IMG/VR virus record: IMGVR_UViG_3300042310_000116
Coordinates: 1 to 24,893 of that record
Direction: 5' to 3' (one strand)
Length of the DNA: 24,893 bases
From: a virus
The notes below the pieces were generated by a model. It was given only the letters and a program-made list of their open reading frames with translations, searched no databases and had not been told where the DNA came from. Position 1 is the first letter of the stretch. Each line of letters starts with the position of its first letter. Positions 2,403-24,003 of this stretch are shown here, one piece after another. Position numbers and translations under genes: made by a program.

Positions 2403-3524
2403 ATGATATCTTATAATCACATCGAAGACTATTTGGAACTGCTAGGCGGCCACACACCTGGTACGTTGGTAATCGTTAACCCTCCCGAGCCTCCTATTAT
2501 CAACTTAGCACGTTATGATATTACTATTGTTGAAAGCATGAGCGCACATACCTATTGGGGTGGCGCCTTAACAGATAGACAAGCAGATCTTGCTGTACGG
2601 TTAGTGCTTAAATACCGCAAACAGTTTGCACGATTCGGTATTGATGTAACACCGGCAGAAATTCCGCAGTTTCGTAAACCAGTACGAGTTGTTAATAGAT
2701 CAAAACAAATTTGGTTAGATGATGAACGTATCGGTGTACGCTTTCCCTACGACCTACCAATGATTAAAGCTATACAAGAAGAACGTAATATAAGTCAAGG
2801 TAGTATGAAGTACAATCAAGAAGAAAAGGTTTGGTATTTGGCCATCACCGAATCTAATGTAAATTGGGCTGTGACCTGGGGCGAAATAAATCAATTTGAA
2901 ATTGATCCACTCGTACAAAACTTGTTTAATTTGATCATGGAGTGCGAAGCTAGTACATACGAAATTAAACTAGTGCGTACAGACACTGGGTATGAAATTA
3001 CCAATGCTGCTGATAGTTTAATTGAATATATTAACACCAAGTTAGGCGGATTTGGCCCCGATAATGCACTGGCATTAATTGACAATTCTGGTGTGTTAGG
3101 TTATACCTATGATGACAATCTAGTACGACCCACACTGTTAGATATATTCGGCAGTAAACGTGATATACATTTGCCTATGACAGAAGATGCTTTGTCATTT
3201 CTATTTTCATACGCAGAGTTAACCAATCGTTATCCTATATGCATTTATGATCCAACTATGTCATCGGTAAATATAGACTTGAGTAGATTCGCTGAAGATG
3301 AAATTGTCCGTTTTAACTATAGTGGTAAAACAAAGACTTGCGATTACAATATAAATTATGTTAAAGTAGTGTATGCAAATAAGATTCCGTCCACATGGAA
3401 TTACTCAATACCATTGTTGGTCTCCACTGTGGAAATGATGTACGGCGGCAAACGTATGGAATGGATTAACCAAGCAGAAAAGATAGCCTACTGCACCAAT
3501 ACCAAATTAAGAGAAAACGATTAA
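2403..3524 (+). CDS. Conserved protein with HARP-like segment, UvsW neighbour (373 aa)
   Basis: No named family is certain. Residues 100-160 contain a segment that reads like the HARP domain of SMARCAL1-type fork-remodelling enzymes: a hydrophobic strand ending in FPYD (residues 114-117), a helix with IKAI, then a short loop and a KVWYL strand (142-146). No Walker motifs are present, so it is not a helicase itself. The N-terminal part has a helical LTDRQADLAVRLVLKYR region (57-73). The C-terminal 200 residues are unassigned. It overlaps the uvsW start by one base (TAATG), so the two are translated together. I infer a DNA-binding partner or substrate adaptor for UvsW. It is the first gene behind the promoter at 2368-2396, and its ATG has no ribosome site. 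Confidence 0.6.
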   Translation: MISYNHIEDYLELLGGHTPGTLVIVNPPEPPIINLARYDITIVESMSAHTYWGGALTDRQADLAVRLVLKYRKQFARFGIDVTPAEIPQFRKPVRVVNRSKQIWLDDERIGVRFPYDLPMIKAIQEERNISQGSMKYNQEEKVWYLAITESNVNWAVTWGEINQFEIDPLVQNLFNLIMECEASTYEIKLVRTDTGYEITNAADSLIEYINTKLGGFGPDNALALIDNSGVLGYTYDDNLVRPTLLDIFGSKRDIHLPMTEDALSFLFSYAELTNRYPICIYDPTMSSVNIDLSRFAEDEIVRFNYSGKTKTCDYNINYVKVVYANKIPSTWNYSIPLLVSTVEMMYGGKRMEWINQAEKIAYCTNTKLREND

Positions 3525-4981
3525 TGGCAACCTGTAAAATTATAATTAAAGATGAAGTGAACTGTAAGTTAGATGGACTTGAACTTACAGAACGCAAATA
3601 TCTTGCAAACAAATTTAAGTATGAAATACCAGGTGCACGTTACCTACCAAGTGTACGTCTTGGTCGCTGGGATGGCAAGGTAGCATACTTTCAATTGGGT
3701 GGCAGTACCTACACTAATCTGCTTGCTGAAATGTTACCCTACATTGACGAGCGTGGATATGATATTGAGCTAGAAGACCTACGCGACTATCGTACACAGT
3801 TTGATTTTACGCAGGTAACAGAAGCTACATTTGCACATAAAGTTTGGCCAGCTAAACATACAATTGCAGGTCAGCCAGTTGTGCTTAGAGATTATCAAAT
3901 TGAGATTATTAACAAGTTTCTTGAGAATCCGCAGTGTCTACAGGAAATTGCCACAGGTGCAGGCAAGACATTGATCACTGCGGCACTTAGCTATAGCTGT
4001 GAGCAGTATGGTCGTACTATAGTAATCGTACCAAATAAATCGTTAGTTACACAAACAGAAGCAGACTACATCAACTTAGGATTAGACGTTGGTGTGTATT
4101 TCGGTGACCGTAAAGAGTTTGGGCATCAGCATACAATCTGTACTTGGCAGAGTCTAAACATTCTACTTAAAAATACCAAAGCACACGAAGCTGACATTAC
4201 TATAATGGAATTTCTAGAAGATGTTATTTGTGTTATGGTTGATGAAGTACACATGGCCAAAGCAGATGCACTTAAAACATTACTTACTGGTGTAATGGCA
4301 CATATTCCGATCCGGTGGGGATTAACAGGCACAATACCTAAAGAAATGTACGAATTTATGAGCCTAAAGTGTTCATTAGGCGAGGTTATTGGCCGTTTGA
4401 GTGCCAGTGAATTGCAGGACCAGGGTGTACTTGCTAACTGTCACGTAAACATCTTACAGTTAATTGATCATGTGGAGTATAAAGACTACCAAAGCGAACT
4501 GCGTTATCTATTAGAGACCGAAGCACGTCTAGATTACATAAGTAAACTAGTAGAAACAGTACGTAAGACAGGCAACACACTTGTGCTAGTTGACCGTATT
4601 GCACCAGGCAAGGCATTAATTGAAAAGATTAATAATGCTGTGTTTGTCAGTGGAGGAACTAAAGCAGATGACCGTAAAGAAAGCTATGATGAGTTTGCAA
4701 CAGGCGATGACTTTGTTGCTGTTGCCACTTATGGCGTTGCGGCTGTTGGTCTTAACATTCCTCGTATTTTTAATCTTGTGCTTATCGAACCTGGTAAATC
4801 TTTTGTCAGGGTCATCCAGAGTATCGGGCGTGGCATTCGCAAAGCGGAAGACAAAGACTTCGTCCAAATCTGGGACGTAACATCAACTTGTAAGTTTGCT
4901 AAACGGCATCTTACAGTCAGAAAGAAATTTTATACAGAAGCAAACTATCCTTATGCGGTAGAAAAAACGGAGTGGAAGTAA
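3524..4981 (+). CDS. uvsW: UvsW-type superfamily 2 DNA helicase
   Basis: The 485-residue protein matches T4 UvsW in length and layout. A small N-terminal domain (about 1-90, with SVRLGRWDGKVAYF at 43-56) precedes two RecA-like domains. Motif I is ATGAGKT at 143-149, motif II is DEVH at 240-243, motif III includes LTGT at 267-270, and motif VI is QSIGRGIR at 432-439. In T4, UvsW unwinds branched DNA, regresses stalled forks and removes R-loops at origins, which shifts replication from origin- to recombination-dependent mode. Its start overlaps the preceding stop, suggesting co-translation with the HARP-like protein. All helicase motifs look intact. Confidence 0.93.
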   Translation: MATCKIIIKDEVNCKLDGLELTERKYLANKFKYEIPGARYLPSVRLGRWDGKVAYFQLGGSTYTNLLAEMLPYIDERGYDIELEDLRDYRTQFDFTQVTEATFAHKVWPAKHTIAGQPVVLRDYQIEIINKFLENPQCLQEIATGAGKTLITAALSYSCEQYGRTIVIVPNKSLVTQTEADYINLGLDVGVYFGDRKEFGHQHTICTWQSLNILLKNTKAHEADITIMEFLEDVICVMVDEVHMAKADALKTLLTGVMAHIPIRWGLTGTIPKEMYEFMSLKCSLGEVIGRLSASELQDQGVLANCHVNILQLIDHVEYKDYQSELRYLLETEARLDYISKLVETVRKTGNTLVLVDRIAPGKALIEKINNAVFVSGGTKADDRKESYDEFATGDDFVAVATYGVAAVGLNIPRIFNLVLIEPGKSFVRVIQSIGRGIRKAEDKDFVQIWDVTSTCKFAKRHLTVRKKFYTEANYPYAVEKTEWK

Positions 4982-6112: not shown

Positions 6113-6576
6113 TGAGCAGTAGTTTACAAATCAACGATGAAATGGCAGCATATGATCGCAAAGATCGTGCTTACTATGATAACTTTACAGAAGAAGATCG
6201 TAAGAAGTTCAGTACCTATCTAATGCTACGTTATGGTGCTAGTGTCACAGGTTCGAGTGACCTACAGGCATATTATCTACTAGCAGTGAATGAACGTGTA
6301 AATAAAAACTTCTTTGACATAAACAAGCACACTAAGTTACAATGGCTATGTTGTACAACTGTAAGTCCGGGCATGGGCAGACAAAGTCATTATTGGCAGG
6401 GCACCAAAAAGAAAGAAGGCAACAGCAAAGCATCAAAGTTTCTTGCTAAACTATATCCTAACCTACGTCAAGATGAACTCGACGTGCTGGTAGCAATTAA
6501 CGATACTAAAAGTCTTAAACTCTTAGGTCAACAGCTGGGCATGGATGATAAGACCATTAAGAAAGAGTTGGAATGA
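6109..6576 (+). CDS. Conserved marine T4-like phage protein (155 aa)
   Basis: A 155-residue soluble protein with motifs I recall as strongly conserved in marine T4-like phages: KKFSTYLMLRYGASVTG, LAVNERVNKNFF and LQWLCCTTVSPGMG. I know of no function for the family. The start is an ATGATG doublet overlapping the previous stop (either Met is possible). The C-terminus is a short helical region (LLGQQLGMDDKTIKKEL) resembling a small helix-turn-helix. The conserved Cys pair at the centre is not part of a visible zinc site. It sits in a co-transcribed group with uvsW and the zinc-finger protein, which suggests a role in replication or late transcription. Confidence 0.75.
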   Translation: MMSSSLQINDEMAAYDRKDRAYYDNFTEEDRKKFSTYLMLRYGASVTGSSDLQAYYLLAVNERVNKNFFDINKHTKLQWLCCTTVSPGMGRQSHYWQGTKKKEGNSKASKFLAKLYPNLRQDELDVLVAINDTKSLKLLGQQLGMDDKTIKKELE

Positions 6577-7316
6577 TCGACGACATAGTATCAGCTTGGA
6601 ATGAAGGTAAAACTACTATAGAAGCTACACCAACATATACCTGTAAATATTGTTCAAAGGAATTTCGTAAGGAAAGTACTTTGGCTGCGCATCTTTGTGA
6701 GCCCAAACGTCGTTGGCAACAGGAAAAGGAAGTTGGCGTACAGTTTGGTCTACAAGCATACCTACGTTTCTTTGAACTGACACAAGGGTCAGCTAAACTA
6801 AAGAGCTATGCTGACTTTGTCTCAAGTCCATACTACACAGCGTTTGTTAAATTTGGTCGTCATATTATTAATATCCGGGCTGTGAACCCTAAATTATTTA
6901 TTGAATATGTAATTAAACAAAATAAGAAGATTGACCATTGGACACATGAAGTAATATACTTAGAATACTTGCATCAATACATGCGCAAAGAAGCAGTACA
7001 AGATGCACTTGAACGAGCACTAACGGAGATGCAGAATTATGTGGATGAAAATACGGAATTATTTCCAAACGGGTTTACAGACTATTTTAGATTGGCTAAC
7101 GCAAACCGTGTTTGTCATCACATCGCTAATGGTCGTATTAGTCCTTGGATTGTGTTTAACTGCGATTCGGGCATTGCATTCTTGGATACATTGGGCGAAG
7201 AGCAAATTACACAAATAATTGCAATGATTGACCCAGAGTATTGGCAACGTAAGTTTAAGGACTACTTAGCCGATACTGAATGGACTAAACAGATTTTAAA
7301 AGATGCAGGGCTATGA
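6573..7316 (+). CDS. Zinc-finger protein, conserved in marine T4-like phages (247 aa)
   Basis: The N-terminus carries a C2H2-like finger of C2HC form: C24 and C27, then F31 and L37 as core residues, then H40 and C42 (CKYCSKEF...LAAHLC), followed by a basic KRRW. The remaining 200 residues are helical and end KQILKDAGL. Overall length and the LQAYLRFFELTQGSAKLKS region look familiar from cyanophage genomes, where I recall only 'hypothetical' or zinc-finger labels. It overlaps its neighbours by 4 bases on both sides (ATGA), so translation is coupled. Probably nucleic-acid binding; a helicase-loader or late-transcription role is possible but not shown. Confidence 0.72.
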   Translation: MIDDIVSAWNEGKTTIEATPTYTCKYCSKEFRKESTLAAHLCEPKRRWQQEKEVGVQFGLQAYLRFFELTQGSAKLKSYADFVSSPYYTAFVKFGRHIINIRAVNPKLFIEYVIKQNKKIDHWTHEVIYLEYLHQYMRKEAVQDALERALTEMQNYVDENTELFPNGFTDYFRLANANRVCHHIANGRISPWIVFNCDSGIAFLDTLGEEQITQIIAMIDPEYWQRKFKDYLADTEWTKQILKDAGL

Positions 7317-7891
7317 CCATTAAGTTTAATAGTGATATAGATATAGATTTTGCCGACCGAACAGAGATATTGAATTTAATAGATCATGTACCTGCGAGCA
7401 TACTAACTAATGGTAATTTTCGAAAACATGCGTCTGGAATCTATGCAACTGACATTCCTGTTGATCCATTTACAGGACAGGCAAGTTTAGATTATAATCT
7501 AGCTGAAGATCGCGGCTATGTTAAACTAGATTTTCTCAATGTTAATTTATATAAACAAGTTAAGAACGAACAGCATCTAATTGAACTGATGCAAGAGCCG
7601 GACTGGGCTAAACTGTATGATCCAGACGTCTGTGCAAAACTTATGCACGTTAATGGGCACTATGATTTGTTACTACAGATGCCAGAGCCCGTAGATACTA
7701 TTCCTAGACTGGCTATGTTCCTAGCTATCATTCGTCCCGCAAAAAGACACTTGGCTGGTAAGACTTGGAAGGAAGTTGCTGAAACTGTTTGGGATAAACC
7801 TGCGGATGATACTTATTATTTCAAAAAGGCTCACGGAATTGCGTACTCAAATCTGGTTGTGGTAAATCTAAACTTACTTACATCTTCCTAA
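7313..7891 (+). CDS. Miniature DNA polymerase III alpha (C-family) palm-like protein (192 aa)
   Basis: Five motifs of the bacterial DnaE catalytic core appear in the right order within 192 residues. SDIDIDFADR (7-16) matches PDFDVDF; RKHASGIY (37-44) matches GKHAGGVV; GYVKLDFLNV (68-77) matches GLVKFDFLGL; AMFLAIIRPAKR (134-145) matches ALVALFRPGP; YYFKKAHGIAY (168-178) matches YGFNKSHSAAY. The three catalytic aspartates of E. coli DnaE (D401, D403, D555) would correspond to D10, D12 and D73, all present. The PHP, thumb, beta-binding and OB regions are missing, and the whole is about a sixth of DnaE. The gene overlaps the zinc-finger gene by 4 bases. I infer descent from a C-family polymerase; activity is unknown and it may act as a small nucleotidyltransferase or regulator. 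Confidence 0.7.
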   Translation: MTIKFNSDIDIDFADRTEILNLIDHVPASILTNGNFRKHASGIYATDIPVDPFTGQASLDYNLAEDRGYVKLDFLNVNLYKQVKNEQHLIELMQEPDWAKLYDPDVCAKLMHVNGHYDLLLQMPEPVDTIPRLAMFLAIIRPAKRHLAGKTWKEVAETVWDKPADDTYYFKKAHGIAYSNLVVVNLNLLTSS

Positions 7892-8249
7892 TCAAGGTAA
7901 TCGAACGACGTTTACTTCGTTTTGACGCAATTTCTCTTAGACTTACATACGGCCCATGTTGTATTACAACATCTTTGCTGTTGAATGTTTTTAAACAAAC
8001 TCTAAACTCTGTCCAATCCTGCTTTAAAAATACGTTAATGGGTATAAGCCTATTACTTTCCCACCACCACTGATCTGCCATGGCTAAGAATACTGTTTTC
8101 TGCTCTATGGTACGCAGTGCAGCAAAGTCGTATATAGTGGTGATGAATTCATCTGCATTTTGAACAATGCCAATATAATCATTTCCACCATACGTTATAT
8201 ACGATAAGAAGGGGTATTGATCGAGTAAATTCTTGTGACTGTCTTCCAT
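7878..8249 (-). CDS. Conserved hypothetical protein on the opposite strand (123 aa)
   Basis: The only convincing minus-strand gene in the window. The 123-residue product has a compact alpha/beta look: YPFLSYITYGGNDYIGIVQN (a strand hairpin), a WWWESNRLIPINVFLKQDW centre, and a basic KRSKRRSITLIRK tail that could bind nucleic acid. From memory it resembles small unnamed proteins of marine T4-like phages. Its 3' end overlaps the polymerase-like gene by 14 bases, and 35 bases separate its start from the divergent structural gene at 8285, so any promoters there overlap. Function unknown. Confidence 0.75.
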   Translation of the reverse strand: MEDSHKNLLDQYPFLSYITYGGNDYIGIVQNADEFITTIYDFAALRTIEQKTVFLAMADQWWWESNRLIPINVFLKQDWTEFRVCLKTFNSKDVVIQHGPYVSLREIASKRSKRRSITLIRKM

Positions 8250-8284: not shown

Positions 8285-8776
8285 ATGCAGACTATCAAAT
8301 CGTATTTATATCCAAATAAAATCATAGTTCAATTTCTGGACCCAGCCATCTTCACAGTGAGGAATAGAGTCGTGTATAGCCGCCCAATTACAGTCTATCA
8401 AGGTATAGACAACCCGCTACAAGTTGTAGTTAACAATCAAGATCAAAAAACAATAAACACTACTGGTTACCTTGTGCAGTTAGATATACAAGATCCGATA
8501 AATCTTGGGTCTGTAGAAAGTCTAGCTGTGACTATGACTAATCCGACTAAAGGACAAGGCACCGTGACTATTCCACGAGATGTAGTTAACGCACTAGAGC
8601 AACGATTTTATAAAATAACAATTAAGTTAATTACAGTTAGCACTAATAAAGAGCAACCATTGTACATTGATGACAATTACGGAGCTCAATTAGATTTAGA
8701 AGTATTACCGGGCTGGTATGAATCTATGCCGTTAACTTTAAATTCAGTAGAAGTAATCGATGGCGGAACAATTTAA
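8285..8776 (+). CDS. Baseplate/fibre-associated protein with BppU-like N-terminal fold (163 aa)
   Basis: First gene of the virion adhesin block. Residues 28-75 (VVYSRPITVYQGIDNPLQVV, then a polar loop and TGYLVQLDIQDP) resemble the N-terminal beta-sandwich of phage baseplate upper proteins of the BppU type, which attaches receptor-binding proteins. The rest continues as beta strands (GQGTVTIPRDVV, YKITIKLI), so the protein is probably one or two beta-sandwiches. Its stop overlaps the giant fibre start by one base (TAATG), suggesting the two products are made together and assemble. An attachment role at the tail is inferred from family likeness and position. Confidence 0.6.
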   Translation: MQTIKSYLYPNKIIVQFLDPAIFTVRNRVVYSRPITVYQGIDNPLQVVVNNQDQKTINTTGYLVQLDIQDPINLGSVESLAVTMTNPTKGQGTVTIPRDVVNALEQRFYKITIKLITVSTNKEQPLYIDDNYGAQLDLEVLPGWYESMPLTLNSVEVIDGGTI

Positions 8777-11700
8777 TGACAATTTCATATGATAAACAAG
8801 TTTTAATTAAACGCGGTAATACTACTAGTGTTAGTAGTTATGTGGGTCCAATTGGCGAATTAGTATTAAACACAGATACTTTTAAAGTATATGTACACGA
8901 TGGCGTAACCGCTGGCGGGGTAGAAGTTACTGGATCAGGCGGCGGCAGTTATTCAAATGTTAATGTTAAATCATACCTACAACAGTTTGATGGTAATATT
9001 GTTCCTACTGGCAACAACGTACATACCTTAGGCAGTGTCGATCACCAATGGAAAAGTTTATATGTAAGTAGTAATACAATTTATATTAATGGTATTCCGT
9101 TAAGCCTTGATATTGGCGGCAATCTTACAATAAATGGTAGCCCAATTAGCAGCACCATAACCTACGGCGACATTAACGGTGCCCCGGTAGACATATCAGA
9201 TTTAACTGACAGTGGCAACTTATTAATTGGTACTCCGGGCCCGCAGGGTCCTCAAGGAAATGTTGGTGCACAAGGCCCACAAGGCATTCAAGGCGAACCT
9301 GGTGCCACTGGCCCACGAGGCATACAAGGAAATGTCGGTGCTCAAGGACCACAAGGAGAGCAAGGCATTCAAGGAAATGTCGGTGCACAAGGACCACAAG
9401 GTGCTCAAGGCGAAGTCGGTGCAACCGGTGCACAAGGCATACAGGGAATACAGGGCAATGTTGGTGCTCAAGGAAGTACCGGTGCACAAGGCATTCAAGG
9501 CAATGTTGGTGCTACTGGCGCACAAGGCATACAGGGAATACAGGGCAATGTTGGTGCTCAAGGAAGTACCGGAGCACAAGGCATACAAGGCAATGTAGGC
9601 CCACAAGGAAGTACCGGAGCACAAGGCATACAAGGCAATGTAGGCGATCAAGGACCACGTGGCTTTACAGGTAATACAGGTGCAACTGGTGCACAAGGTG
9701 ATACAGGTAATACAGGTGCAACTGGTGCACAAGGAACAAGTGTAACCCTATTAGGTAGTGTAGATATTGTAGGTAACTTACCTGTAACTGCTAACGTGGG
9801 CGAAGGATGGATTGTTCAATCCAGTGGTAATTTATATCTATGGAATACTATATCAAGCACATGGAATGACATAGGACAGATTGTAGGGCCTCAAGGTGAC
9901 CCAGGTGTACAAGGACCACGTGGCTTTACGGGCAACGTTGGTGCAGAAGGTCCACAGGGCATACAGGGCGAACAAGGAATACAAGGCGAACAAGGCATAC
10001 AAGGAAATATAGGTTCACAAGGCGAACAGGGCATACAAGGCGCACAAGGAATACAGGGCGAACAAGGAATACAAGGCGAACAGGGCATACAAGGCAATGT
10101 CGGTCCACAAGGCGAACAGGGCATACAGGGCGAACAGGGCATACAGGGCGAACAAGGAATACAGGGCGAACAAGGCATACAAGGAAATATAGGTTCACAA
10201 GGCGAACAGGGCATACAAGGCAATATTGGTGCTCAAGGACCACAAGGAGATCAAGGGCCACAGGGAGTTTCCGGAGCAGATGGCGCACCTGGAGCAGATG
10301 GTGCACAGGGACCAGCAGGTAATGACGGAGCACCCGGAGCAGATGCTTTATGGAACTTTACTGGTGCGTATGGTGGTGGCAATAGTTATGCTATCGGTGA
10401 TGTTGCTACCTACGGTGGCGAAACTTGGTATCGCATTGATGCTAATGGCGGCAATACAGGTAATACACCCGCTGAAGGAACATTCTGGACTAAGATAGCA
10501 GAAAAAGGCGCTGCTGGTGTCGATGCTAATCCAGACGCTGTAGTCAACGGTCTATTTAATATTACATTAAATGCCACCGGCGACTTTATTCCTAGTGCAG
10601 ACATACTACAAGACCTAGGCAGTACTACAAAAAGATTCCGTCACTTATACGTTGGACCAGGATCAGTTTACATTGGTAACAATGTTATTACAGAAGCAGC
10701 AACAGGTGGACTAGTTCTTCCAGGTGTTACTCGTGCTACAGGCTATTACGCAGAAGAAGTTGACGACGAAGATGAATGGGGCAGTAATCCCACTATCACA
10801 GGCACAGTTACAGTCATTGATGCTCAACGTTATGAAATACTAGCAGGACGACCAGCAAGTGCTAATTACGCACCAGCAACTTATATAGCACAAAAAGACG
10901 GCAATAAAGTTGACGAAATAACTGTTGACGAAACTGGCGGCGGTTGGACTCAGACTGAAGCATACTACGCTCGCGACAACAACATGTATGCTACTAACGT
11001 AGCAGATGCTATTAACAATTTTAACGCAGGCGACTGGCAACAGATTCCTTTCCGTGTAAATTTAAAAGCAGAAGACACAGAATACGAAGACATTTTTGGC
11101 GGTGGAACAACACTGCCTTCACAGTCTGGTCAAGAAGGAAAATTTTTAAGAACAGATGGCAGTAATTTAAGTTGGGTCACAGTAACTGGCGGCAATGCCG
11201 ACTTGGGTGATTTTAGCATTGACGGTAGTACACTTGAAGCTGATTCAATGACTATCAAAACCGTTGATGGTGAATTAAACATCGAGTCAGACAGTAATGT
11301 CTATGTTAAAGTCGCAGGCGGAACAAAGTATTGGTCATTTGCTAATGACGGAGTACTATCACTACCAGAAGGCGGAGACATTAGAGACAGTAATGGTAGT
11401 TCAGTATTAGGTGGCAATGCCAACACTGGAGACTTTACATTCGACGCAGACACTATCACAAACAATGACGGAATGAAACTGACTACCAATAGAGGCACAT
11501 TGGCCATGGGTACTGACATGGAAGTGCCAGGTGTAGCACAACACTTCCACATTGCCTTTGACGGTAGTAATAGTAATCCGCCCGCTAGTGATCTGTTCTT
11601 AGGTGACGACAACAACTATGTTAAATTACCTGGATATGAACTCAACCCAACTGCTCAATATGGTGTGGAGATTGGCACAAACAACAGAGGCCTTGGACCA

Positions 11701-13992
11701 CAGAATGTCGAAGTTAATGAAGTAGATGAACTTGTGCCACCTGGTGGCGTTTGGCGTTTCTTTATTGACCACGACACCTATCCTAACTTGGGCTCTGCTG
11801 TTAGCGTAGGTGACACAGTGACCACATCATGGGGGACACCCATAACTGCCACAATTACAGACGTTGTTGAAGAACCTGGCAACTACTGGAAAATCCATGT
11901 TGCTCAAGATATTACCGCTGGATTTCTTGATGAGGGAGAAACAGTCTCATTTGGTGCTTCAGGCGACAGCCATACTTGGCGTTTTGGCACAGATGGCGGA
12001 TTAGTATTCCCAGACGACACAGTTCAGACCACAGCCTACATAAGTGGCACTAACGCTAACACTGGTAACGTTGTATTCGACGGTAATCAAATGTATGTAG
12101 GTGGCACAGGTTTCTTAAATTTAGAAACCGATACCGGTGTTGCTGTTATTGGTACTAACGGTCCGCAACCATTACTTGTTAGTATAAACGAGGACGATAA
12201 AATATGGTCCTTTGATCCGGACGGTGGTATTACATTCCCAGATGCTACAGTTCAGACCACAGCCTACACTGGACAATCGGGCGGTAGTAGTACAGTAGTT
12301 CGCCAGGACACAGCACCTACAGCCTCAAATGGCACACTATGGTTTAACACAGTAGAAGGCAGACTCTACATCAAGTATAGCGATGTTTGGGTAGATGCGG
12401 CTCCTTTAGTTCAACCTCCACCAGACACTGACATTGATGTTAATTCAATCACATTCCCAGACGCTACAGTTCAGACTTCAGCATACATTAATAGGTTGGA
12501 CAACGGTGACTATACAGCATTGTTTAGTGAAGATGGGTGGTTAAGAGTACGCAAACCCAGCACTGAACAAAACTATTTTAACCTTGTACCGTTTAAAAAC
12601 GAAGACGATACATATGGAGTACAAATTGACATAGACAATCAAGCAGGTTGGTCATTTTTAAACAATGGTACTTTATCATTGCCCGCATCTAGCAATGACT
12701 TATATACAACAACTAACGCATTAATTAAATCTATCGCAGATATACAAATTAGTGCTGGAGATGATGTAGGCAGTAATTGGGTGTTTGGCGGCAATGGTGA
12801 TTTACTATTACCCCAAGGCAGCGTCATAGGTGAAACAGACACTACCACAGTTATTACACCGCCAGGAGCAAGTGCTGGTCAGAGTTTGGTTATTCGTCCA
12901 ACTTCGATCACTGGAATTACTTCCAACTATCCAAGTGGATTTGCTGACGGTGATACTATTGTATTATCTGTTACTCCTAATAATGGCGGCTCAGTAACCG
13001 GCACAGTGGATTACACATTTACAGGAGCCACTAGTGAGCAATTAGGTCGTGCGTTAACAGGCACATTGACATTTAGCAATGAAGGTTTTAAATCAATAAC
13101 TTGGACTGTACCAGTATCAAGCAGTATCACAACCTTTACATTCACACTTAGCAATGCGTCAGGATTTAGTATTAGTGCGCTTGCACCTTATACATTAACA
13201 CGAACTGGTAGTAGTGAAACAAGTCACGTTCACCTTGTAGCAGGCGATCCCACAACCACTGACCTATATCTAGGTGATGATGACCAGTATGTCAAGATTG
13301 AGAAGAATGGCGGCGATGTTGTTATTGGCACTGACGCAAATACCAAACACTGGCGCTTTGATGAAACTGGTACTACAACATTACCAGGTGCCGTGGTCAA
13401 CAGCACAGTGGCCAAGACTGGTGTAGTATTACCGACAACTACGGGTGTTGTTGACACACTGGCCCACGATTCTGTGCTGACCGGGCTAACTGATGCTACA
13501 TACGGTCCGTTTACACGAGATGTAGTGACATTCAGTGTTGTGGTAACTAGCGGAGTTATTAATTCTTTCAGTAACATTACTGTCAGCGGTGATTTACCTG
13601 TTAACGCTGTAATAGGCACACTTGACAGCGGAGATATTAGTGGCACATCAGGTACTACTATTACTTTGACAGTTGCTACAGTAGTACAAGCAACACCAAC
13701 AGCCATAGACCTAACCAAATCTATCAACAAACTAACTGACGGTGTTTACACACTGGCCAACGGTGTAGAAGGGCAGATCATGTACCTAGTGGCACAAAAT
13801 GGTGTTGTTCCGACTGACGTGAGTGTATTAGTTGCCAATAGTCGTAATATAGGCGTTGGCACGTTGTTGCCATTCAGCGTATACGACAATTCTGATGATA
13901 GTTATTATGGTAATATCGGTGGCTTCTGTACTTTAATCTTTACAGACGGTGCTTGGCAACAAAGTGGCGGAGCATGGGGTATAATAACTTAA
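8776..13992 (+). CDS. Giant collagen-like tail fibre with carbohydrate-binding module (1738 aa)
   Basis: A modular fibre. Residues 1-52 resemble the N-terminal domain of phage receptor fibres ([21 protein letters not shown]). A TLGS..W..LYV module is at 83-107. Gly-X-Y collagen-like stretches occupy about 152-320 and 371-522, separated by a 50-residue globular insert ([18 protein letters not shown]). Residues 525-575 match the CBM5/12 chitin-binding pattern (AYAIGDV-type strand, [19 protein letters not shown]). A second LGS..RF..LYV module follows near 610-640. Then come several repeats with a WxFxxDGxLxLP signature and three FPD.TVQT.AY motifs. An Ig-like region lies near 1370-1470. Gly-X-Y proteins form triple helices, so the fibre is probably trimeric. 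Likely a virion receptor-binding fibre; the receptor is unknown. It ends 25 bases before the 70-residue gene. Confidence 0.85.
9229..9735 (+). repeat. Collagen-like Gly-X-Y repeat block 1
   Basis: Encodes about 168 residues of uninterrupted Gly-X-Y triplets rich in [12 protein letters not shown] and GAT. At DNA level the block is made of 9- to 45-base near-copies; for example, the run coding [18 protein letters not shown] occurs twice (about 9436-9490 and 9526-9580). Such repeats favour length change by slippage or recombination. Confidence 0.88.
9886..10341 (+). repeat. Collagen-like Gly-X-Y repeat block 2
   Basis: About 152 residues of Gly-X-Y triplets dominated by the hexapeptide GEQGIQ, which occurs four times in a row at residues 446-469. 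The DNA copies differ mainly by synonymous changes (caa/cag, gga/ggc). This suggests ongoing expansion and correction within the fibre gene. Confidence 0.88.
12001..12486 (+). repeat. Three dispersed copies of the FPD.TVQT.AY motif
   Basis: Near-identical 38- to 40-base copies coding (V/I)(T/F)[10 protein letters not shown] lie at 12001-12039, 12229-12267 and 12447-12486 within the giant fibre. A divergent fourth copy (FPDGTRQNTSA) lies near 18016-18050 in the next fibre. They mark boundaries between successive beta-rich fibre modules. Confidence 0.75.
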
Positions 13993-14017: not shown

Positions 14018-14230
14018 ATGGCAATAACATTTCCAACAGAGCCCACACTAGGGCAAGAATACGTAGGTGACAACTCTGTGACCTACCAATGGACCGGCAG
14101 CATTTGGAGCGCACAAGTTCCTTGGCTAGCAGGTAGAGCACAGTATGTAGCAGAGGGCGGGTTTGCGGATCAAACCTACAACGATAACTTAGACAACACC
14201 ATCGACGGTGGCAACGGAGCAAAACAATGA
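14018..14230 (+). CDS. Small fibre-linker/structural protein (70 aa)
   Basis: A 70-residue protein starting MAITFPTEPTLGQEYVGDN, followed by VTYQWTGSIWSAQ. This FP..PT.GQ.Y / TYxWxGxxW pattern is common in short structural domains of marine phage tail fibres. The second half (GGFADQTYNDNLDNTIDGG) is polar and probably extended. AGGA at 14008-14011 supports the start, and the gene overlaps the following fibre by 4 bases (ATGA). I infer a small virion accessory or connector acting with that fibre. Confidence 0.68.
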   Translation: MAITFPTEPTLGQEYVGDNSVTYQWTGSIWSAQVPWLAGRAQYVAEGGFADQTYNDNLDNTIDGGNGAKQ

Positions 14231-17200
14231 CAACAAGAATTAAACTACGCCGTGACATAGCGGCCAACTGGACACAAAATAATCCTGTACTGGCCGAGGG
14301 TGAACCAGGATTAGAAACAGATACTGGCAAGGTCAAGTATGGTAATGGTACCACTCCTTGGAACAGTTTAGACTACAGTGGAGCCGGAGCTGCAAGTCTT
14401 ACAGACGAAGGCAACGTTGTGATCACAGCAGGATCAACAGAGCATTGGATTGCCACACAGCGTAAAGAACAGGGAGGTACTACTCCCAGTGCTCTGCGTT
14501 ATGACAGCCAAGGTAACCTGTACTCATTGACCAGAACCTATGACGACAGCGCCGATTACGATGTCACAGTTATTACCAAATACACAGCCACAGGCAACAT
14601 AGCCTGGCAAAAAACATTTAGTGATACTTATCCGATAGCCCTAGCAGTGGACAGTTCAGATCGTGCTTACATTACTTTAGGAGCCGGCGACCCAGTAATC
14701 ACAGTGATCAAGTTTGATATCATAGGTGAGATACTGTGGAAGAAAGACTATAACATTGGTCCGATTCCAGCATACGGTGCTTACATTGAAGAAAAGAGCA
14801 CTACTACATTGGCCTTAGCGATTATGATCGCCAGCGATGGCCCCGAACCTACCAATGTGTTGGTAATGGAAATTAGTGCTGCCAATGGTTCAGTGCTGTT
14901 GAAAAAATCCTTACAACAACCCGGCGATGTAATAGTGGTGGTCACTGGTATGGATGTTGATCCTGATGAGAATGTTTTTGTCACTGGTTGGTATAACGAT
15001 GCCGGTGTTGGTAAGATGTTCATTGAAAAATTAGACGAAGACCTAGAGCCTGTATGGACTAAGAGTCTAGAAGCACCTGACAACTATGATATGTACGGTG
15101 GCGACTGTGCCTCAGATGCTCTGGGCAATATCTATGTGGTAGGTGCCTATGAAGTTGAAACTACCAACAGTGATATCAATAACACTCCAGAAGCGTCTGC
15201 TGGCATATTGACCAAGTTAAATTCCAGCGGTGTAGTAATGTGGACACGCAGACTTGGCCCAGGACCTTGCGGCAGTTGGATTGCGGGATTGACAGCCACA
15301 GCCACAGGCGATGTTTATCTATCATCCTTGACATTTGCCAAGAAAACTGGCCCACTACCTGGCGCTTCTGAATATGAACGACAAAATCTTGGACAGAACA
15401 AGATGATCGTGGTTCGCTATGACTCACAGGGCGAGGTAGTTTGGCAACGCTATGTTGATGTGGCCAACCTAGAAGAAGAGGAACCTGATGATCCAGAATT
15501 CACCCGCGGTCAGGCCATAGCAGTATTTGATGACAAGTTTGCGGTAGATGGATACGGCTACAGTTGGAATACCACACCGTTTGAAAGCGGCAGTACAGCA
15601 GACAACGAATACGATTACTTTGTGACACAGTTGCCTACAGAAGGCACAACATTGACCATCGGTGGTTTAAACTTTACAGAAAGCCGTGTGCCAGCTCGCT
15701 TTGTGACTCACACTACCAGCGACAGTCCTTTGACCCACGCAAACTGGGAAGAAACTATTACAGCAGAAACTTCTACACTGGTAGCAGACACTGATATTAA
15801 AATAGCCAACAGCCTAGTACAGAGCGAAACTTACCAATATACATTTGGTGCTGATGGTACACTGACCATACCTAACGATGGCGATCTTAAACTAACACAA
15901 ACACAGGTTGGTTGGCTTTTTGCCCTAGACGCCCGCGACGGCGGCGGCGACATTGAAGGCGATTGTATCGCAGTTGACTCACAGGGCAACAGTTACATAG
16001 CAGGTGAGGAGGATGACAATGACCGCACATTTGTAATGAAGGTCAGTCCTGAAGGCGATAGACTGTGGAGTATGAACATCGACGAAACTGACGACGGTGA
16101 TTATGGTTATACAACCAGCCTCAAAATTCATCCTGTCACAGGCAATATTATGGTGCTAGGTGGAATTTGGGACACTTACTCCTACGGCGTGTTGTACACT
16201 ATAGATCAAGATACTGGTCGTCTTTTAAATGTTACAGAATTCAAAGACAGTGACGCTGACGTTGACCCAACCACCATCGCCTATACCAACACAGGAGACT
16301 ATGTGATAGGTGGTAGTAAGAACGGCGAGTTCAGTCCAGAGTATCCTGTAGTTCCACAAACAGGCAGTGGCACTGGTACTATTGTAATTTTAAGAAGTGC
16401 TGTTCCTGTTGACAACATCAGTACTAATTGGCAGATTGGCGGCACAGGTATTACACCGTTTCAAAGCATTGAGTACATAGAACGCTATCAAAATTTAACT
16501 GGCACAACCAGACAAGGTACAGGTGCTACATTTGACATCACCAACAACGGTGATGGTACTTATAGTGTTTCGGTTGTTAGTGGTGGTACAGACTATCTAG
16601 CAGGGCACAAGATCAAGATTTTAGGTACAAGTTTAGTTGGCGTACCTGGAGCAACACCGGACAACGATATCATCATTACAGTAGGGAGTAGCAACGGCGG
16701 CGCCATTAACGGTATAACTCATACGGGAACAGCCGCTGGAACCACAGTGGCAACTGATACTGAAGTATCAGGCACTAACTACGAAGTAGGTTCAGGATTG
16801 GTGTTTACATTTGAAGGTCCTAGAGATACTAACGACTACAGCAATCGCTGGGGTGATAATATCACCACAAACGGTTCAAACTATGTCAACGGTGATGTTG
16901 TTACTGTACTAGGTACAAGTCTGGGCGGCACCAGCCCTGCTAACGATCTAACCATTAACCTCTATAAAGACGAGTCTAATTTTTACATTGACAGTAGATC
17001 AGGCACAGCACAAAGCACAACTTGGAAGATAGAAACAACCGCACAGGTTGACTTTACCGATGTTGAAGGTGCTTGGAGCATTACCTATTCAAGACAAAAT
17101 GAATGTCTACTGATCACTCCCACTTGGCAGCGTACATTTGGCACAGGTACAGATAGTGATGATACTATCAAGGCCGTGGCCATAGATAGTGAAGGTAATA

Positions 17201-18384
17201 TCATTGCGGTAGGTGATGGATATGGAGAATTAGCAGCGGACAGTTTTCAAGATCTAGCCGTGGTCTACAAGTTCAACAGCACAGGTACACTACAATGGGC
17301 TCGTCAACTCAACACTGAAAATGACCATCACTACGGAGACAGCGTGGTGACCATAGGCACAGACATCTATGTCGTACACGAAAACGACGAGAATGATGCT
17401 TATGTCAGCAAGTTGGACAGCACGGGCACAGTCAAATGGCAAAGACGCACTGATGGCGATGACATAACCATTGCCCGCACACCGGACGGAAATCTATTGG
17501 TGGCCACTGAAGACGAGGTCACTGATGTCGACGACGATGTTATTAAAATATTCCTACTAACACCCGCAGGAGAAACTGTGTGGAAGCGTTGGCTGTCTGC
17601 TATTACCAACGACGACACTTGGATTGGCAGCACCGGCGAATGTTTAGTCACAGACGCCGACAGTTTCTATATCACAGGACGCTTTGAGACTGACTTTGGT
17701 GGTGGTGATAATTGGGCTTGGGCCGCTCGCTTGCCTCTAGATGGCTCGGGCACAGGCGAGTATGGACAGTTCCGCTACACAGATGTCAATTCAATGACCA
17801 ACGATCTCAGCAATTTCAACTATAGTATTGATGTTGTTGATATAGACGATGCGAATAACTATGCTGGCATATTCGGCGACAGCAGTGATCCAGTGGTTAA
17901 AACTACCACCGCAGTGACTGTGATTACTAACAACATCAACGACTATGAAGTTGACGGCTACTATCCGCCAATGATTTTAGAAACTGTGCGTGACACAGAC
18001 GGTGGCAACATTGTGTTCCCCGATGGTACCCGTCAGAATACTTCAGCCACAGACATTCCACAGAGACTGTTCAATGGCGTAGATTACACCCTGGGTATGG
18101 AAGATCGTGGACATCACATTCTCTGTACTGACGATATTCAAAGCATTCGTATTCCCTACAATGCTCGTGTAGAGTTCCCAATAGGCACAGTGATTACCTT
18201 TGTGAATCCCCGTGGCGATAGTGTGATCATCAACACAGAAGGCGGCAGTATACAAGTGATGATCCCAGGTGATGATAATTACCCAGGCGGTGGCAGTTTT
18301 TATGTGTCTGAGTACGGTATGGCCACGCTGTTAAAGATTGGTATGGACTCGTGGGTGTTGGCCGGCAATGTTGGCGTAGATTAA
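14227..18384 (+). CDS. Beta-propeller tail fibre/adhesin (1385 aa)
   Basis: The N-terminus (residues 4-50: KLRRDIAANW, LAEGEPGLETDTGKVKYGNG, TPWNSL) is the fibre head domain shared with phage tropism determinants and with the giant fibre upstream. Most of the protein consists of propeller-like blades with the repeated pattern 'AVDS.GN.Y..G...D..V.K....G...W...', in three groups (about nt 14404-15606, 15910-16340 and 17122-17735). These resemble SBBP/PQQ-type beta-propeller repeats. Two copies of a GTDYLAGHKIKILGTSL-type element lie between groups. The C-terminal ~120 residues carry FPDGTRQNTSA and a beta-rich cap (PRGDSVIINTEGG, GGGSFYVSEYGMATLLKI). Propellers often bind glycans or proteins, so a receptor-binding role is likely. 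The start overlaps the linker gene stop. Confidence 0.78.
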   Translation: MTTRIKLRRDIAANWTQNNPVLAEGEPGLETDTGKVKYGNGTTPWNSLDYSGAGAASLTDEGNVVITAGSTEHWIATQRKEQGGTTPSALRYDSQGNLYSLTRTYDDSADYDVTVITKYTATGNIAWQKTFSDTYPIALAVDSSDRAYITLGAGDPVITVIKFDIIGEILWKKDYNIGPIPAYGAYIEEKSTTTLALAIMIASDGPEPTNVLVMEISAANGSVLLKKSLQQPGDVIVVVTGMDVDPDENVFVTGWYNDAGVGKMFIEKLDEDLEPVWTKSLEAPDNYDMYGGDCASDALGNIYVVGAYEVETTNSDINNTPEASAGILTKLNSSGVVMWTRRLGPGPCGSWIAGLTATATGDVYLSSLTFAKKTGPLPGASEYERQNLGQNKMIVVRYDSQGEVVWQRYVDVANLEEEEPDDPEFTRGQAIAVFDDKFAVDGYGYSWNTTPFESGSTADNEYDYFVTQLPTEGTTLTIGGLNFTESRVPARFVTHTTSDSPLTHANWEETITAETSTLVADTDIKIANSLVQSETYQYTFGADGTLTIPNDGDLKLTQTQVGWLFALDARDGGGDIEGDCIAVDSQGNSYIAGEEDDNDRTFVMKVSPEGDRLWSMNIDETDDGDYGYTTSLKIHPVTGNIMVLGGIWDTYSYGVLYTIDQDTGRLLNVTEFKDSDADVDPTTIAYTNTGDYVIGGSKNGEFSPEYPVVPQTGSGTGTIVILRSAVPVDNISTNWQIGGTGITPFQSIEYIERYQNLTGTTRQGTGATFDITNNGDGTYSVSVVSGGTDYLAGHKIKILGTSLVGVPGATPDNDIIITVGSSNGGAINGITHTGTAAGTTVATDTEVSGTNYEVGSGLVFTFEGPRDTNDYSNRWGDNITTNGSNYVNGDVVTVLGTSLGGTSPANDLTINLYKDESNFYIDSRSGTAQSTTWKIETTAQVDFTDVEGAWSITYSRQNECLLITPTWQRTFGTGTDSDDTIKAVAIDSEGNIIAVGDGYGELAADSFQDLAVVYKFNSTGTLQWARQLNTENDHHYGDSVVTIGTDIYVVHENDENDAYVSKLDSTGTVKWQRRTDGDDITIARTPDGNLLVATEDEVTDVDDDVIKIFLLTPAGETVWKRWLSAITNDDTWIGSTGECLVTDADSFYITGRFETDFGGGDNWAWAARLPLDGSGTGEYGQFRYTDVNSMTNDLSNFNYSIDVVDIDDANNYAGIFGDSSDPVVKTTTAVTVITNNINDYEVDGYYPPMILETVRDTDGGNIVFPDGTRQNTSATDIPQRLFNGVDYTLGMEDRGHHILCTDDIQSIRIPYNARVEFPIGTVITFVNPRGDSVIINTEGGSIQVMIPGDDNYPGGGSFYVSEYGMATLLKIGMDSWVLAGNVGVD

Positions 18385-20886: not shown

Positions 20887-20889
20887 TTG

Positions 20890-21321
20890 ATGTTTGAACA
20901 ACATAGGCTGGCAGTTGACGCAGGGTTGGCAGAACTGATACAACATCAGCGTGGTTTGGACTATAGACGCAGGTACGGAGCAGGCTGGCAGAGTATAGGG
21001 TATACTGGTCAGCCTTTTCCATGGTTTGAATCAACCTATAGGGCAGTAGAAGCACAAGTAGGTACTATAGACACATGGTGGTTTAATGCGAACCTACAGG
21101 GCGAAGGCACGGGTTGGCATAGTCACAGCCAGTGGGACAAGGTTGGGGTGCTGTATGTACAGGTACCTGCGGGTCTTATAGAGTTTAAGAAGGGTGAAGC
21201 ATATTGGACTGAGAGCCCGCAAGCAGGAGATCTGCTAGTATTTCCTGGTAGTTTAGAGCATAGAGTACTGCCTAACACCAGCCAGGCAGTTAGGATCAGC
21301 ATAGCGTTCAATTTCAAGTAA
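20890..21321 (+). CDS. 2OG-Fe(II) oxygenase-like protein (143 aa)
   Basis: A cupin-fold (double-stranded beta-helix) oxygenase-like protein. Candidate metal residues, numbered from a TTG-initiated 144-residue frame, are H78/H80 in GWHSHSQWDKVG, D84, and H125 in FPGSLEHRVLPN; R136 in VRISIAFN would hold 2-oxoglutarate. This order matches the phage 2OG-Fe(II) oxygenase families common in marine myoviruses, which hydroxylate unknown protein or nucleotide targets. I chose ATG 20890 rather than TTG 20887. It starts three bases after the adhesin stop and lacks a clear ribosome site, so it depends on read-through or coupling. Substrate unknown; it could modify virion proteins encoded just upstream. 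Confidence 0.7.
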   Translation: MFEQHRLAVDAGLAELIQHQRGLDYRRRYGAGWQSIGYTGQPFPWFESTYRAVEAQVGTIDTWWFNANLQGEGTGWHSHSQWDKVGVLYVQVPAGLIEFKKGEAYWTESPQAGDLLVFPGSLEHRVLPNTSQAVRISIAFNFK

Positions 21322-21328
21322 ATACTTG

Positions 21329-22039
21329 ATGGGAATCATACTATCAACTCTACTAATGACTCATGTCACTATGGCATGTGTTACACTTTATCTACATCGC
21401 AGTCAAAGTCACAAGGGAATTCAATTCCATCCTGCGTTAGCACATGCCATGCGTTTTTGGTTGTGGCTCACAACGGGTATGAATACTAAAGCATGGGTAG
21501 CAGTACATCGCAAACATCATCAAACAACTGATGTAGAAGGTGACCCTCATAGTCCGCACGTATTTGGACTACTAACAGTAATGACCACTGGTATGAAGTT
21601 GTACAACACACCATGTCGATCAGCAGACTTTGTTATGAAGTATGGAGCTGGTACTCCTAAAGATTGGATTGAACGTCGACTGTACACTCCATATCCTATA
21701 CTAGGTTTGTTCATAATGCTATCTTTTGATTTACTATTATTTGGCGCCTGGGGATTACTAGTATGGGCAGTACAAGTTGCTTGGATTCCTGTGGCGGCAG
21801 GTAGTTTAATTAACGGACTAGGACATTGGTGGGGGTATCGTAACGGTGAAACTCAAGATCGTAGTCGTAATATTAGCCCATTTGGCGTTATAGTCGCTGG
21901 AGAAGAGCTACATAACAATCATCATTTAGACCCAGCTGATCCTAAGTTTAGTCGTAAGCCTTGGGAGTTTGACATAGCTTGGATGTATATTACTATATTT
22001 AGATATCTGCGTTTGGCAAAATTAACTCAAAAACATTGA
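21329..22039 (+). CDS. Membrane fatty-acid desaturase (236 aa)
   Basis: A stearoyl-CoA/acyl-lipid desaturase-type protein with the three canonical histidine boxes: HRSQSH (23-28), HRKHH (60-64) and HNNHH (195-199), plus NGLGHW (162-167), which supplies the extra di-iron ligand of this class. Four hydrophobic membrane stretches lie around 1-20, 38-52, 122-145 and 147-162. The enzyme introduces a double bond, typically at delta-9, into membrane acyl chains with O2 and an electron donor. The family is bacterial, and the protein is somewhat short but complete in its active-site ligands. The start is ATG 21329 rather than the TTG at 21326. It follows the oxygenase by 7 bases. As a phage auxiliary metabolic gene it could adjust host membrane fluidity; the true substrate is unknown. 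Confidence 0.88.
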   Translation: MGIILSTLLMTHVTMACVTLYLHRSQSHKGIQFHPALAHAMRFWLWLTTGMNTKAWVAVHRKHHQTTDVEGDPHSPHVFGLLTVMTTGMKLYNTPCRSADFVMKYGAGTPKDWIERRLYTPYPILGLFIMLSFDLLLFGAWGLLVWAVQVAWIPVAAGSLINGLGHWWGYRNGETQDRSRNISPFGVIVAGEELHNNHHLDPADPKFSRKPWEFDIAWMYITIFRYLRLAKLTQKH

Positions 22040-22070: not shown

Positions 22071-23102
22071 ATGCTGAACATCATCTCTGATTTCATTAAA
22101 AGTATTTTACCTGCAAAGCGTAAAACAACTCCCAGCGGTTGGATTAGCTTTAATGCACCTTGTTGTATACACAACGGTGACTCGGCAGATACTAGAGGTC
22201 GTGGCGGCCTAACTGCTAATGCAGATGGTAGTGTGTCGTATCACTGTTTTAACTGTAACTTCAAAGCATCGTATCAACCAGGCAGGCACTTAACATTTAA
22301 GTTTCGCAAACTATTATCCTGGATGGGCGCAGGTGATAGCGATGTTAAACGATTGGTAATTGAAGCTATTCGTATCAAAGACCTAGTAGCACCAGAACAG
22401 GTAAAAGAACCAGAAGAAAAGATTGAGTTTAAAGTTCGTAAGTTACCCAAAGATGCGTTAAGTTTCCAACAACTACTTACACATCACATATTAGATGACT
22501 TTAATAATGTTCCTACACTGCTAAATTCGGCAGTTGACTACATTAAAGCACGTAAGATTGATCATACCAAGTATGACTTTTATTGGACTGACAGTACAGA
22601 GCACAGTCTACATCAACGTGTGATCATTCCTATGATTTGGGAAGGTAACACCATTGGGTATACAAGTCGTGCATTTACTGATGGAGTTAAACCCAAGTAT
22701 TACAGTCACTATGAACCTAACTTTGTGTTTAATACCAACAATCAAAAACGCGACAGTAAGTTTGTTATTGTCTGTGAAGGTCCGTTTGATGCTATGGCCG
22801 TAGATGGTGTAGCGGTACTGGGTAATGAAGTTGCAGAACAACAAGCAGACATTATTGACGCACTGGGACGTGAAGTTATAGTAGTCGCCGACGCAGATAA
22901 GAGTGGTGTTAAACTTGTTGATGCGGCTGTTAAATATGGTTGGAGTGTTAGCTTTCCGGTTTGGCAAGAAGACGCCGACTGTAAAGACATCAGTGACGCA
23001 GTAATTAAGTATGGTAAACTGTTTGTGCTTAAAACTATCATTGATGCTAAAGAATCAAGCAAATTAAAAATTGAATTACTACGCAAGAGACGATATGCTT
23101 AA
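22071..23102 (+). CDS. 61: T4 gp61-type DNA primase
   Basis: A DnaG-class primase. The N-terminal zinc-binding site is C31/C32, H34, C59 and C62 (APCCIH...YHCFNCNF). The TOPRIM domain carries the acidic motif EGPFDA (236-241) and the DADKSG motif (274-279), whose acidic residues bind Mg2+. It makes RNA primers for lagging-strand synthesis and partners the gp41 helicase encoded just downstream. Length (343 residues) fits T4 gp61. No alternative ATG, GTG or TTG lies between the start and the zinc site, so ATG 22071 is firm even though it has no ribosome site. The stop overlaps the start of the radical SAM gene. Confidence 0.9.
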   Translation: MLNIISDFIKSILPAKRKTTPSGWISFNAPCCIHNGDSADTRGRGGLTANADGSVSYHCFNCNFKASYQPGRHLTFKFRKLLSWMGAGDSDVKRLVIEAIRIKDLVAPEQVKEPEEKIEFKVRKLPKDALSFQQLLTHHILDDFNNVPTLLNSAVDYIKARKIDHTKYDFYWTDSTEHSLHQRVIIPMIWEGNTIGYTSRAFTDGVKPKYYSHYEPNFVFNTNNQKRDSKFVIVCEGPFDAMAVDGVAVLGNEVAEQQADIIDALGREVIVVADADKSGVKLVDAAVKYGWSVSFPVWQEDADCKDISDAVIKYGKLFVLKTIIDAKESSKLKIELLRKRRYA

Positions 23103-24003
23103 TCAAATTACCGGATTTCATATCGAACCAACAAACATGTGTACATTAAAATGTCCACGCTGCGCACGTACGAAATTTATCGAGCAATTTCCATCACAGT
23201 GGACTAATAAAAATTTAAATTTAGCAGATTTAAAACAATTCTTAGATATTGATCTGACAGATAAAGATATATCTCTTTGTGGAAACTACGGTGATCCGAT
23301 ATATTATCCGCAGATATTTGAGATGATTGAATATTTTAAAAGTGCTGGTGCAAATATTATACTATCTACAAATGGCAGTTATAAATCATGGGATTGGTGG
23401 CGGCAGCTAGCTGACTTGCTAGATTATAAAGATACTGTAATATATGGAATAGATGGCATACCTGAAAATTTTACCCAATACAGAATTAATGCTGATTGGC
23501 CTTCTATTAAACTTGGTATAGATGTATTAACAAAAACTAACATTAATACAGTGTGGCAATACATACCTTTTTCATTTAATGAAGATACCATTGACCAAGC
23601 TCGAACATTAGCTCAAACTTTGGGCTTTGATGAATTTTTAATATTACCCAGTGATCGATGGGACGAAAATGATACTTTACAATCGGCTAATTATACTGGG
23701 GATAGAACTACAGCGATAGTTAATTGGAAAACTAATTTAGATCGCACAAGTGAAATTGATCCTAAATGTAAAACATTAAATAATCAACATTACATATCAG
23801 CTGATGGATATTATATGCCTTGTTGTTTTGTTGGAGATCATAGATTCTACTACAAGAGTGAATTTTATAAAAACCGATCGCAATACAATATAAGTAATAC
23901 TACCATTAGTAAAATACTAGCATCAAATCAATCAAAAGACTTTTATAATACTTTAGAAGATGCTAAACTTAATTATTGTACTTTTAACTGTCCAAAACTA
24001 TGA
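23095..24003 (+). CDS. Radical SAM/SPASM-type protein (302 aa)
   Basis: The radical SAM motif CxxxCxxC is C16, C20 and C23 (NMCTLKCPRC), preceded by a typical FHIEPTN strand. SLCGNYGDP and ILSTNGSY supply the usual SAM-binding glycine and strand signatures. The C-terminus has SPASM-like cysteines (CKTL, YMPCCF and a final YCTFNCPKL) that would hold a second iron-sulphur cluster. SPASM enzymes usually modify peptides, but no precursor peptide is seen here. I chose ATG 23095, overlapping the primase stop, over the TTG at 23071. The gene is clearly AT-richer than primase and helicase, with many stretches near 25-30 percent G+C by eye, which points to recent acquisition. It overlaps the gp41 start by 4 bases. 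Confidence 0.82.
   Translation: MLNQITGFHIEPTNMCTLKCPRCARTKFIEQFPSQWTNKNLNLADLKQFLDIDLTDKDISLCGNYGDPIYYPQIFEMIEYFKSAGANIILSTNGSYKSWDWWRQLADLLDYKDTVIYGIDGIPENFTQYRINADWPSIKLGIDVLTKTNINTVWQYIPFSFNEDTIDQARTLAQTLGFDEFLILPSDRWDENDTLQSANYTGDRTTAIVNWKTNLDRTSEIDPKCKTLNNQHYISADGYYMPCCFVGDHRFYYKSEFYKNRSQYNISNTTISKILASNQSKDFYNTLEDAKLNYCTFNCPKL

Follow-up and report, generated by a model that had tools for sequence, protein, structure and literature searches.

The closest described counterpart of the locus analysed here is the split minimal DNA polymerase III alpha (Pol III alpha) that Iyer et al. reported in 2021 for group 2.2 jumbo phages (PMC7824862). In their treatment of that group, in which Atu_ph07 is placed, an NTP-binding N-terminal unit and a C-terminal unit that binds Mg2+ and the template are encoded by distant genes alongside a family B polymerase, and the two halves are proposed to combine into an enzyme that would synthesise strands or act in repair and that resembles an ancestral state (PMC7824862). 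Pieces of this module appear in two further papers: the 2017 description of Pectobacterium phage CBB noted the N-terminal half alone, as a truncated Pol III alpha (PMC5259590), and the Atu_ph07 paper recorded a Pol III alpha subunit that is kept in Rak2-like phages (PMC6102473). Our literature search, with most subscription journals outside its scope, found no experimental work on the split enzyme.

The window, by which we mean the whole stretch of 24,893 nucleotides analysed here (positions 1 to 24,893 of IMG/VR record IMGVR_UViG_3300042310_000116), encodes a protein of 192 residues that carries five motifs of the bacterial replicase DnaE in their expected order, as the first-pass annotation had read them (Table 1). 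We call this protein the C-half and its separately encoded partner the N-half. The system has in common with that of Iyer et al., as far as their section on group 2.2 describes it, the same minimal module and, in relatives of the window, the division into N- and C-terminal units in distant genes and the family B polymerase alongside (PMC7824862); it differs in that the window belongs to an uncultivated phage lineage and that the N-half is seen in its relatives only. Atu_ph07, a group 2.2 member, and Rak2-type phages encode clear homologues of the C-half. In phage CBB, the homologue is CBB_287, located 34 kb from CBB_328, a member of the N-half family (phrog_11127) that is annotated as DNA polymerase III alpha. 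With high confidence, we identify the family in the window with the split Pol III of Iyer et al. on the basis of the shared phage group, architecture and split, the passages that describe that enzyme giving no accessions for its halves (PMC7824862). The relation had initially been taken as undescribed; in fact the split was published in 2021 (PMC7824862), and PHROG 11778, to which the C-half belongs, is named DNA polymerase, as are several GenBank records. Several other GenBank records, including that of CBB_287 (locus L089, 9035-9685), call the C-half a putative membrane protein, which looks like a mis-annotation. The split-enzyme reading was reached independently by Iyer et al. (PMC7824862). 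To an idea known since then, the present analysis adds the split point, a corrected residue register, the presence of the N-half in all 14 long records that carry the C-half, a set of conserved gene neighbours and an occurrence in a non-jumbo phage of 141 kb, and the window itself adds a lineage.

Table 1. Features of the polymerase locus and its surroundings, in coordinates of the window.
Feature	Position	Strand	Evidence or remark
UvsW-like helicase	3524..4981	+	phrog_16, E 7e-74
Gene with C2H2 zinc finger, phrog_11058	6573..7316	+	stop overlaps polymerase start (ATGA)
Putative C-terminal subunit of split minimal DNA polymerase III alpha, phrog_11778	7313..7891	+	ORF, profile match, hhalign, Foldseek
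DIDIDF motif, residues 8-13	7334..7351	+	D8, D10 and D12 invariant in 16 diverse homologues
RKHASG motif, residues 37-42 (DnaE GKHAGG 509-514)	7421..7438	+	H39 and G42 invariant
VKLDFL motif, residues 70-75	7520..7537	+	K71 = DnaE K553, D73 = D555
FLAIIRPAKR motif, residues 136-145 (DnaE ALFRPGP 636-642, fingers)	7718..7747	+	R141 and P142 invariant
FKKAHGIAY motif, residues 170-178 (DnaE FNKSHSAAY 756-764, fingers)	7820..7846	+	H174 and Y178 invariant
Convergent 123-aa gene, phrog_11637	7878..8249	-	overlaps polymerase gene tail to tail; no Pfam match
DnaG/gp61-like primase, Toprim domain	22071..23102	+	Pfam Toprim_2 at cut-off

The gene of the C-half starts at an ATG shared in part with the stop codon of its upstream neighbour, and residues 4-190 of its product match positions 4-192 of the 197-position phrog_11778 profile (PHROGs search, E 1.3e-59). 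In the same search, the FKKAHGIAY motif also gave weak secondary matches with further families of phage polymerases. Single-sequence and profile searches miss the relation to DnaE: there was no match in Pfam and no convincing DnaE match in NCBIfam or in a sequence search of the PDB, where the fingers segment alone surfaced, weakly. Profile-profile and fold comparison were therefore required. When the window protein and 28 homologues, taken as one profile, were compared with a profile built from ten DnaE sequences (hhalign), residues 38-144 aligned with E. coli DnaE 510-642 at a probability of 96.2%, followed by a second, collinear segment pairing residues 153-182 with DnaE 738-768. Column-shuffled controls (n = 100) stayed at a probability of 2% or less; the real profile scored 76 and the best of the controls 26. 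The C-half is a relative of the C-family (DnaE) polymerases, confirmed as such and visible by sensitive methods only. It shares with E. coli DnaE the order of the motifs, the catalytic aspartates, the lysine and the fingers motifs. By contrast, the alignment is restricted to the two DnaE segments and the protein to 192 residues, which leaves no room in the C-half for the PHP, thumb, clamp-binding and OB regions, a loss already noted in the first-pass annotation; the split enzyme does without all four and has its palm divided over two proteins.

E. coli DnaE has D401, D403 and D555 as its catalytic residues, the first two lying in the stretch P400-D401-F402-D403-V404-D405-F406. Aligned with this stretch on its phenylalanine, the DIDIDF motif pairs D8 with D401, D10 with D403 and D12 with D405, and the alignment further pairs D73 with D555 and K71 with K553. 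The claim that all three catalytic aspartates are retained therefore stands, the residues being invariant, and their register does not: the alignment designates D8, D10 and D73 in place of the D10, D12 and D73 named at first pass. In 16 diverse homologues, the most distant of which is 32% identical, D8, D10, D12, K71, D73, R141, P142, H174 and Y178 are invariant. The five motifs occupy 37 of the 192 positions and hold 14 of the 18 invariant residues (hypergeometric P = 1.7e-8), and we regard it as confirmed that they are not a product of chance.

Fold comparison points the same way. The AlphaFold2 model of the C-half has a mean pLDDT of 82, lower over residues 1-80; residues 9-13 and 71-76 lie on strands, within a palm part that is of lower pLDDT. 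A Foldseek search of this model against the PDB ranked Pol III alpha first and returned it for all of the first six matches, at weak E-values (0.02-0.2). In a library of viral structures, every named match among the first eleven was a DNA polymerase, in several cases annotated as DnaE (best E 8.8e-4). Pol III alpha was also the top Foldseek match of the N-half. Modelled alone, the N-half reached a pLDDT of 65, with its GRGS and C-terminal segments under 50, a poor model that would be compatible with an obligate partner or with folding on a partner and that falls short of proof of either.

DnaE requires a first palm segment with a GRGS loop (within residues 359-368) ahead of the DxDxD motif. 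The C-half starts at DxDxD and has no GRGS loop on the same polypeptide, and the self-contained miniature palm first envisaged gives way to one divided between two genes: in 14 of 14 long records carrying the C-half, a search with the N-half profile found a separate N-half gene, and all 14 N-halves keep the GRGS loop. The N-half family aligns with DnaE 286-392 at a probability of 95.6% (profile-profile comparison; shuffled controls at 2% or less), and the CBB_328 homologue from a close relative of the window scores 30.3 bits against Pfam DNA_pol3_alpha, above the cut-off of 23.9. The N-half ends at EFLK, equivalent to DnaE ERFL 389-392, and the C-half opens with DxDxD, equivalent to DnaE 401-405. 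Taken together, the two halves reconstitute the palm with no shared segment, along with part of the fingers. About 80 N-terminal residues of the N-half have no DnaE match, and neither half matches DnaE 433-510 in profile-profile comparison.

Searches of the 24.9-kb window with PF07733 and the N-half profile found no N-half. The partner gene is present in relatives that are 86% (329 kb) and 91% (141 kb) identical, and its presence in the phage of the window may be deduced from these close relatives. The halves are 110-120 kb apart in the four viral contigs closest to the window, the C-half being upstream of the N-half; in isolated phages, the distance ranges from about 11 kb to more than 100 kb. 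As the halves are adjacent in no record examined, their pairing draws no argument from a shared operon. Twelve contigs retrieved by way of their N-half gene showed no C-half in a reverse search; this is no evidence of separation, because the 110-120 kb spacing, with the position and strand of the N-half, would place the C-half past the ends of the long ones among them. Alishewanella phage Slicko01 (141 kb, non-jumbo; L120) carries both halves about 11 kb apart; a clamp-loader subunit gene also lies close to the C-half in this phage. Family B polymerase (PF00136) accompanies the C-half in 13 of the 14 long records, the exception being a 141-kb fragment. The early idea of a bacterial-type core existing alongside a B-family polymerase is thereby corroborated for the relatives of the window.

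The C-half is embedded in a stable gene order, namely UvsW-like helicase, phrog_11279, phrog_11758, the C2H2 zinc-finger protein (phrog_11058), the C-half and the convergent phrog_11637. Among loci with enough room on the contig, a UvsW-like helicase is found upstream in 47 of 54, in agreement with the UvsW gene group first assigned to the window, a phrog_11058 homologue upstream in 82 of 85, and a phrog_11637 homologue on the opposite strand just downstream in 83 of 86. Gene order makes the products of phrog_11058 and phrog_11637 candidate accessory factors, and the former is possibly a DNA-binding partner. In isolated jumbo phages, the C-half is followed after a few genes by a primase, and a gp41-like helicase also lies on this side. 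Nothing notable emerged from a search for repeats and tRNAs near the polymerase gene.

Homology to DnaE, conservation of the active site, co-occurrence of the halves and the genomic context (UvsW, primase and helicase) together favour a split polymerase. Specifically, the C-half is probably the C-terminal, catalytic subunit of a minimal C-family polymerase encoded by two genes, which would serve short synthesis beside the family B replicase. From the sequence comparisons, we infer how the subunits would assemble, catalyse and act. The N and C subunits would pair as a heterodimer to form one active site. To it the N subunit would bring the initial palm segment and a GRGS loop that holds the triphosphate. 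In the C subunit, D8, D10 and D73 would bind two metal ions, K71 and the fingers motifs would contact the nucleotide, and the shortened fingers would read the template. The product would be short DNA made with low processivity, most plausibly to fill gaps, to repair DNA or to extend primers at recombination intermediates. Processive replication is unlikely because the thumb, PHP and clamp-binding parts are missing and related phages encode a family B replicase. If the halves do rebuild an active site, we would know of no smaller C-family polymerase; the enzyme would also be a naturally split one of replicative type, operating beside a family B replicase, and would serve as a testable model of how bacterial Pol III arose. 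Two bolder versions can be envisioned, which we consider quite unlikely: an obligate two-gene active site that acts as a Pol alpha-like enzyme of primer extension or lagging-strand synthesis and hands over to the family B replicase, or a living relic of an ancestral C-family polymerase that predates the PHP, thumb and clamp-binding parts, the relic idea being that of Iyer et al.

The missing thumb leaves templated synthesis uncertain, and it gives weight to the best surviving alternative, in which the reunited enzyme is a non-templating nucleotidyltransferase, that is, an end-tailing, primer-making, or RNA- or protein-modifying transferase of the Pol beta fold. Such an enzyme would account for active-site residues being kept while the thumb that grips the duplex (DnaE 433-510) is matched in neither half, and for the unmatched N-terminal stretch of the N-half. 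Yet the protein retains the fingers motifs of a templating DnaE (RPGP and FNKSH..Y), and its gene is located in a cluster for replication and recombination, so that we judge this alternative rather unlikely. Far less probable is a non-catalytic regulator or decoy that mimics host Pol III alpha and, for example, disturbs the host replisome, an idea raised by the first-pass annotation and suggested by the small size of the protein and by the replicase that related phages already own. Mimicry would need both separate genes to be retained, the DnaE parts that are missing are those binding the clamp and the clamp loader, and no defence-related family was matched (PADLOC). The decoy idea finds no support because the metal, lysine and nucleotide-loop positions are conserved over two separate genes, the catalytic aspartates, the lysine and the GRGS loop of the partner being invariant in distant homologues.

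The C-half belongs to a large and constrained family. One scan recovered 105 related stretches of the C-half in viral contigs, besides 90 phage records, and an identical C-half protein is carried by three viral contigs. Against close relatives, dN/dS is about 0.07-0.13, indicative of strong purifying selection. The loss of most DnaE domains might suggest that a DnaE gene captured from a host is decaying here; this is contradicted by the spread over viral contigs and phage records, a dN/dS of about 0.1, strictly invariant active-site residues and conserved gene neighbours, and its likelihood is close to nil. None of 50,697 phage records is a close relative of the window at the DNA level, and the C-half is at most 49% identical to the C-halves of isolated phages. 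Among phages amenable to culture, the family is found in those of E. coli, Klebsiella, Salmonella and Pseudomonas.

The window also carries several other genes. Positions 386-1408 encode an AAA ATPase (phrog_1250) with distant similarity to clamp loaders. Farther along, a predicted tail or fibre protein of 1738 residues (8776-13992) combines an Mtd_N-like N-terminus with a long collagen-like Gly-X-Y region, and a protein of 1385 residues (14227-18384), probably another fibre, has an Mtd_N-like N-terminus and beta-propeller (SBBP) repeats. A fatty acid desaturase gene (21326-22039; Pfam FA_desaturase, E 7.2e-16) lies between a 2OG-Fe(II) oxygenase gene (20887-21321) and the primase gene, which is directly followed by the gene of a radical SAM protein with a SPASM domain (23071-24003).
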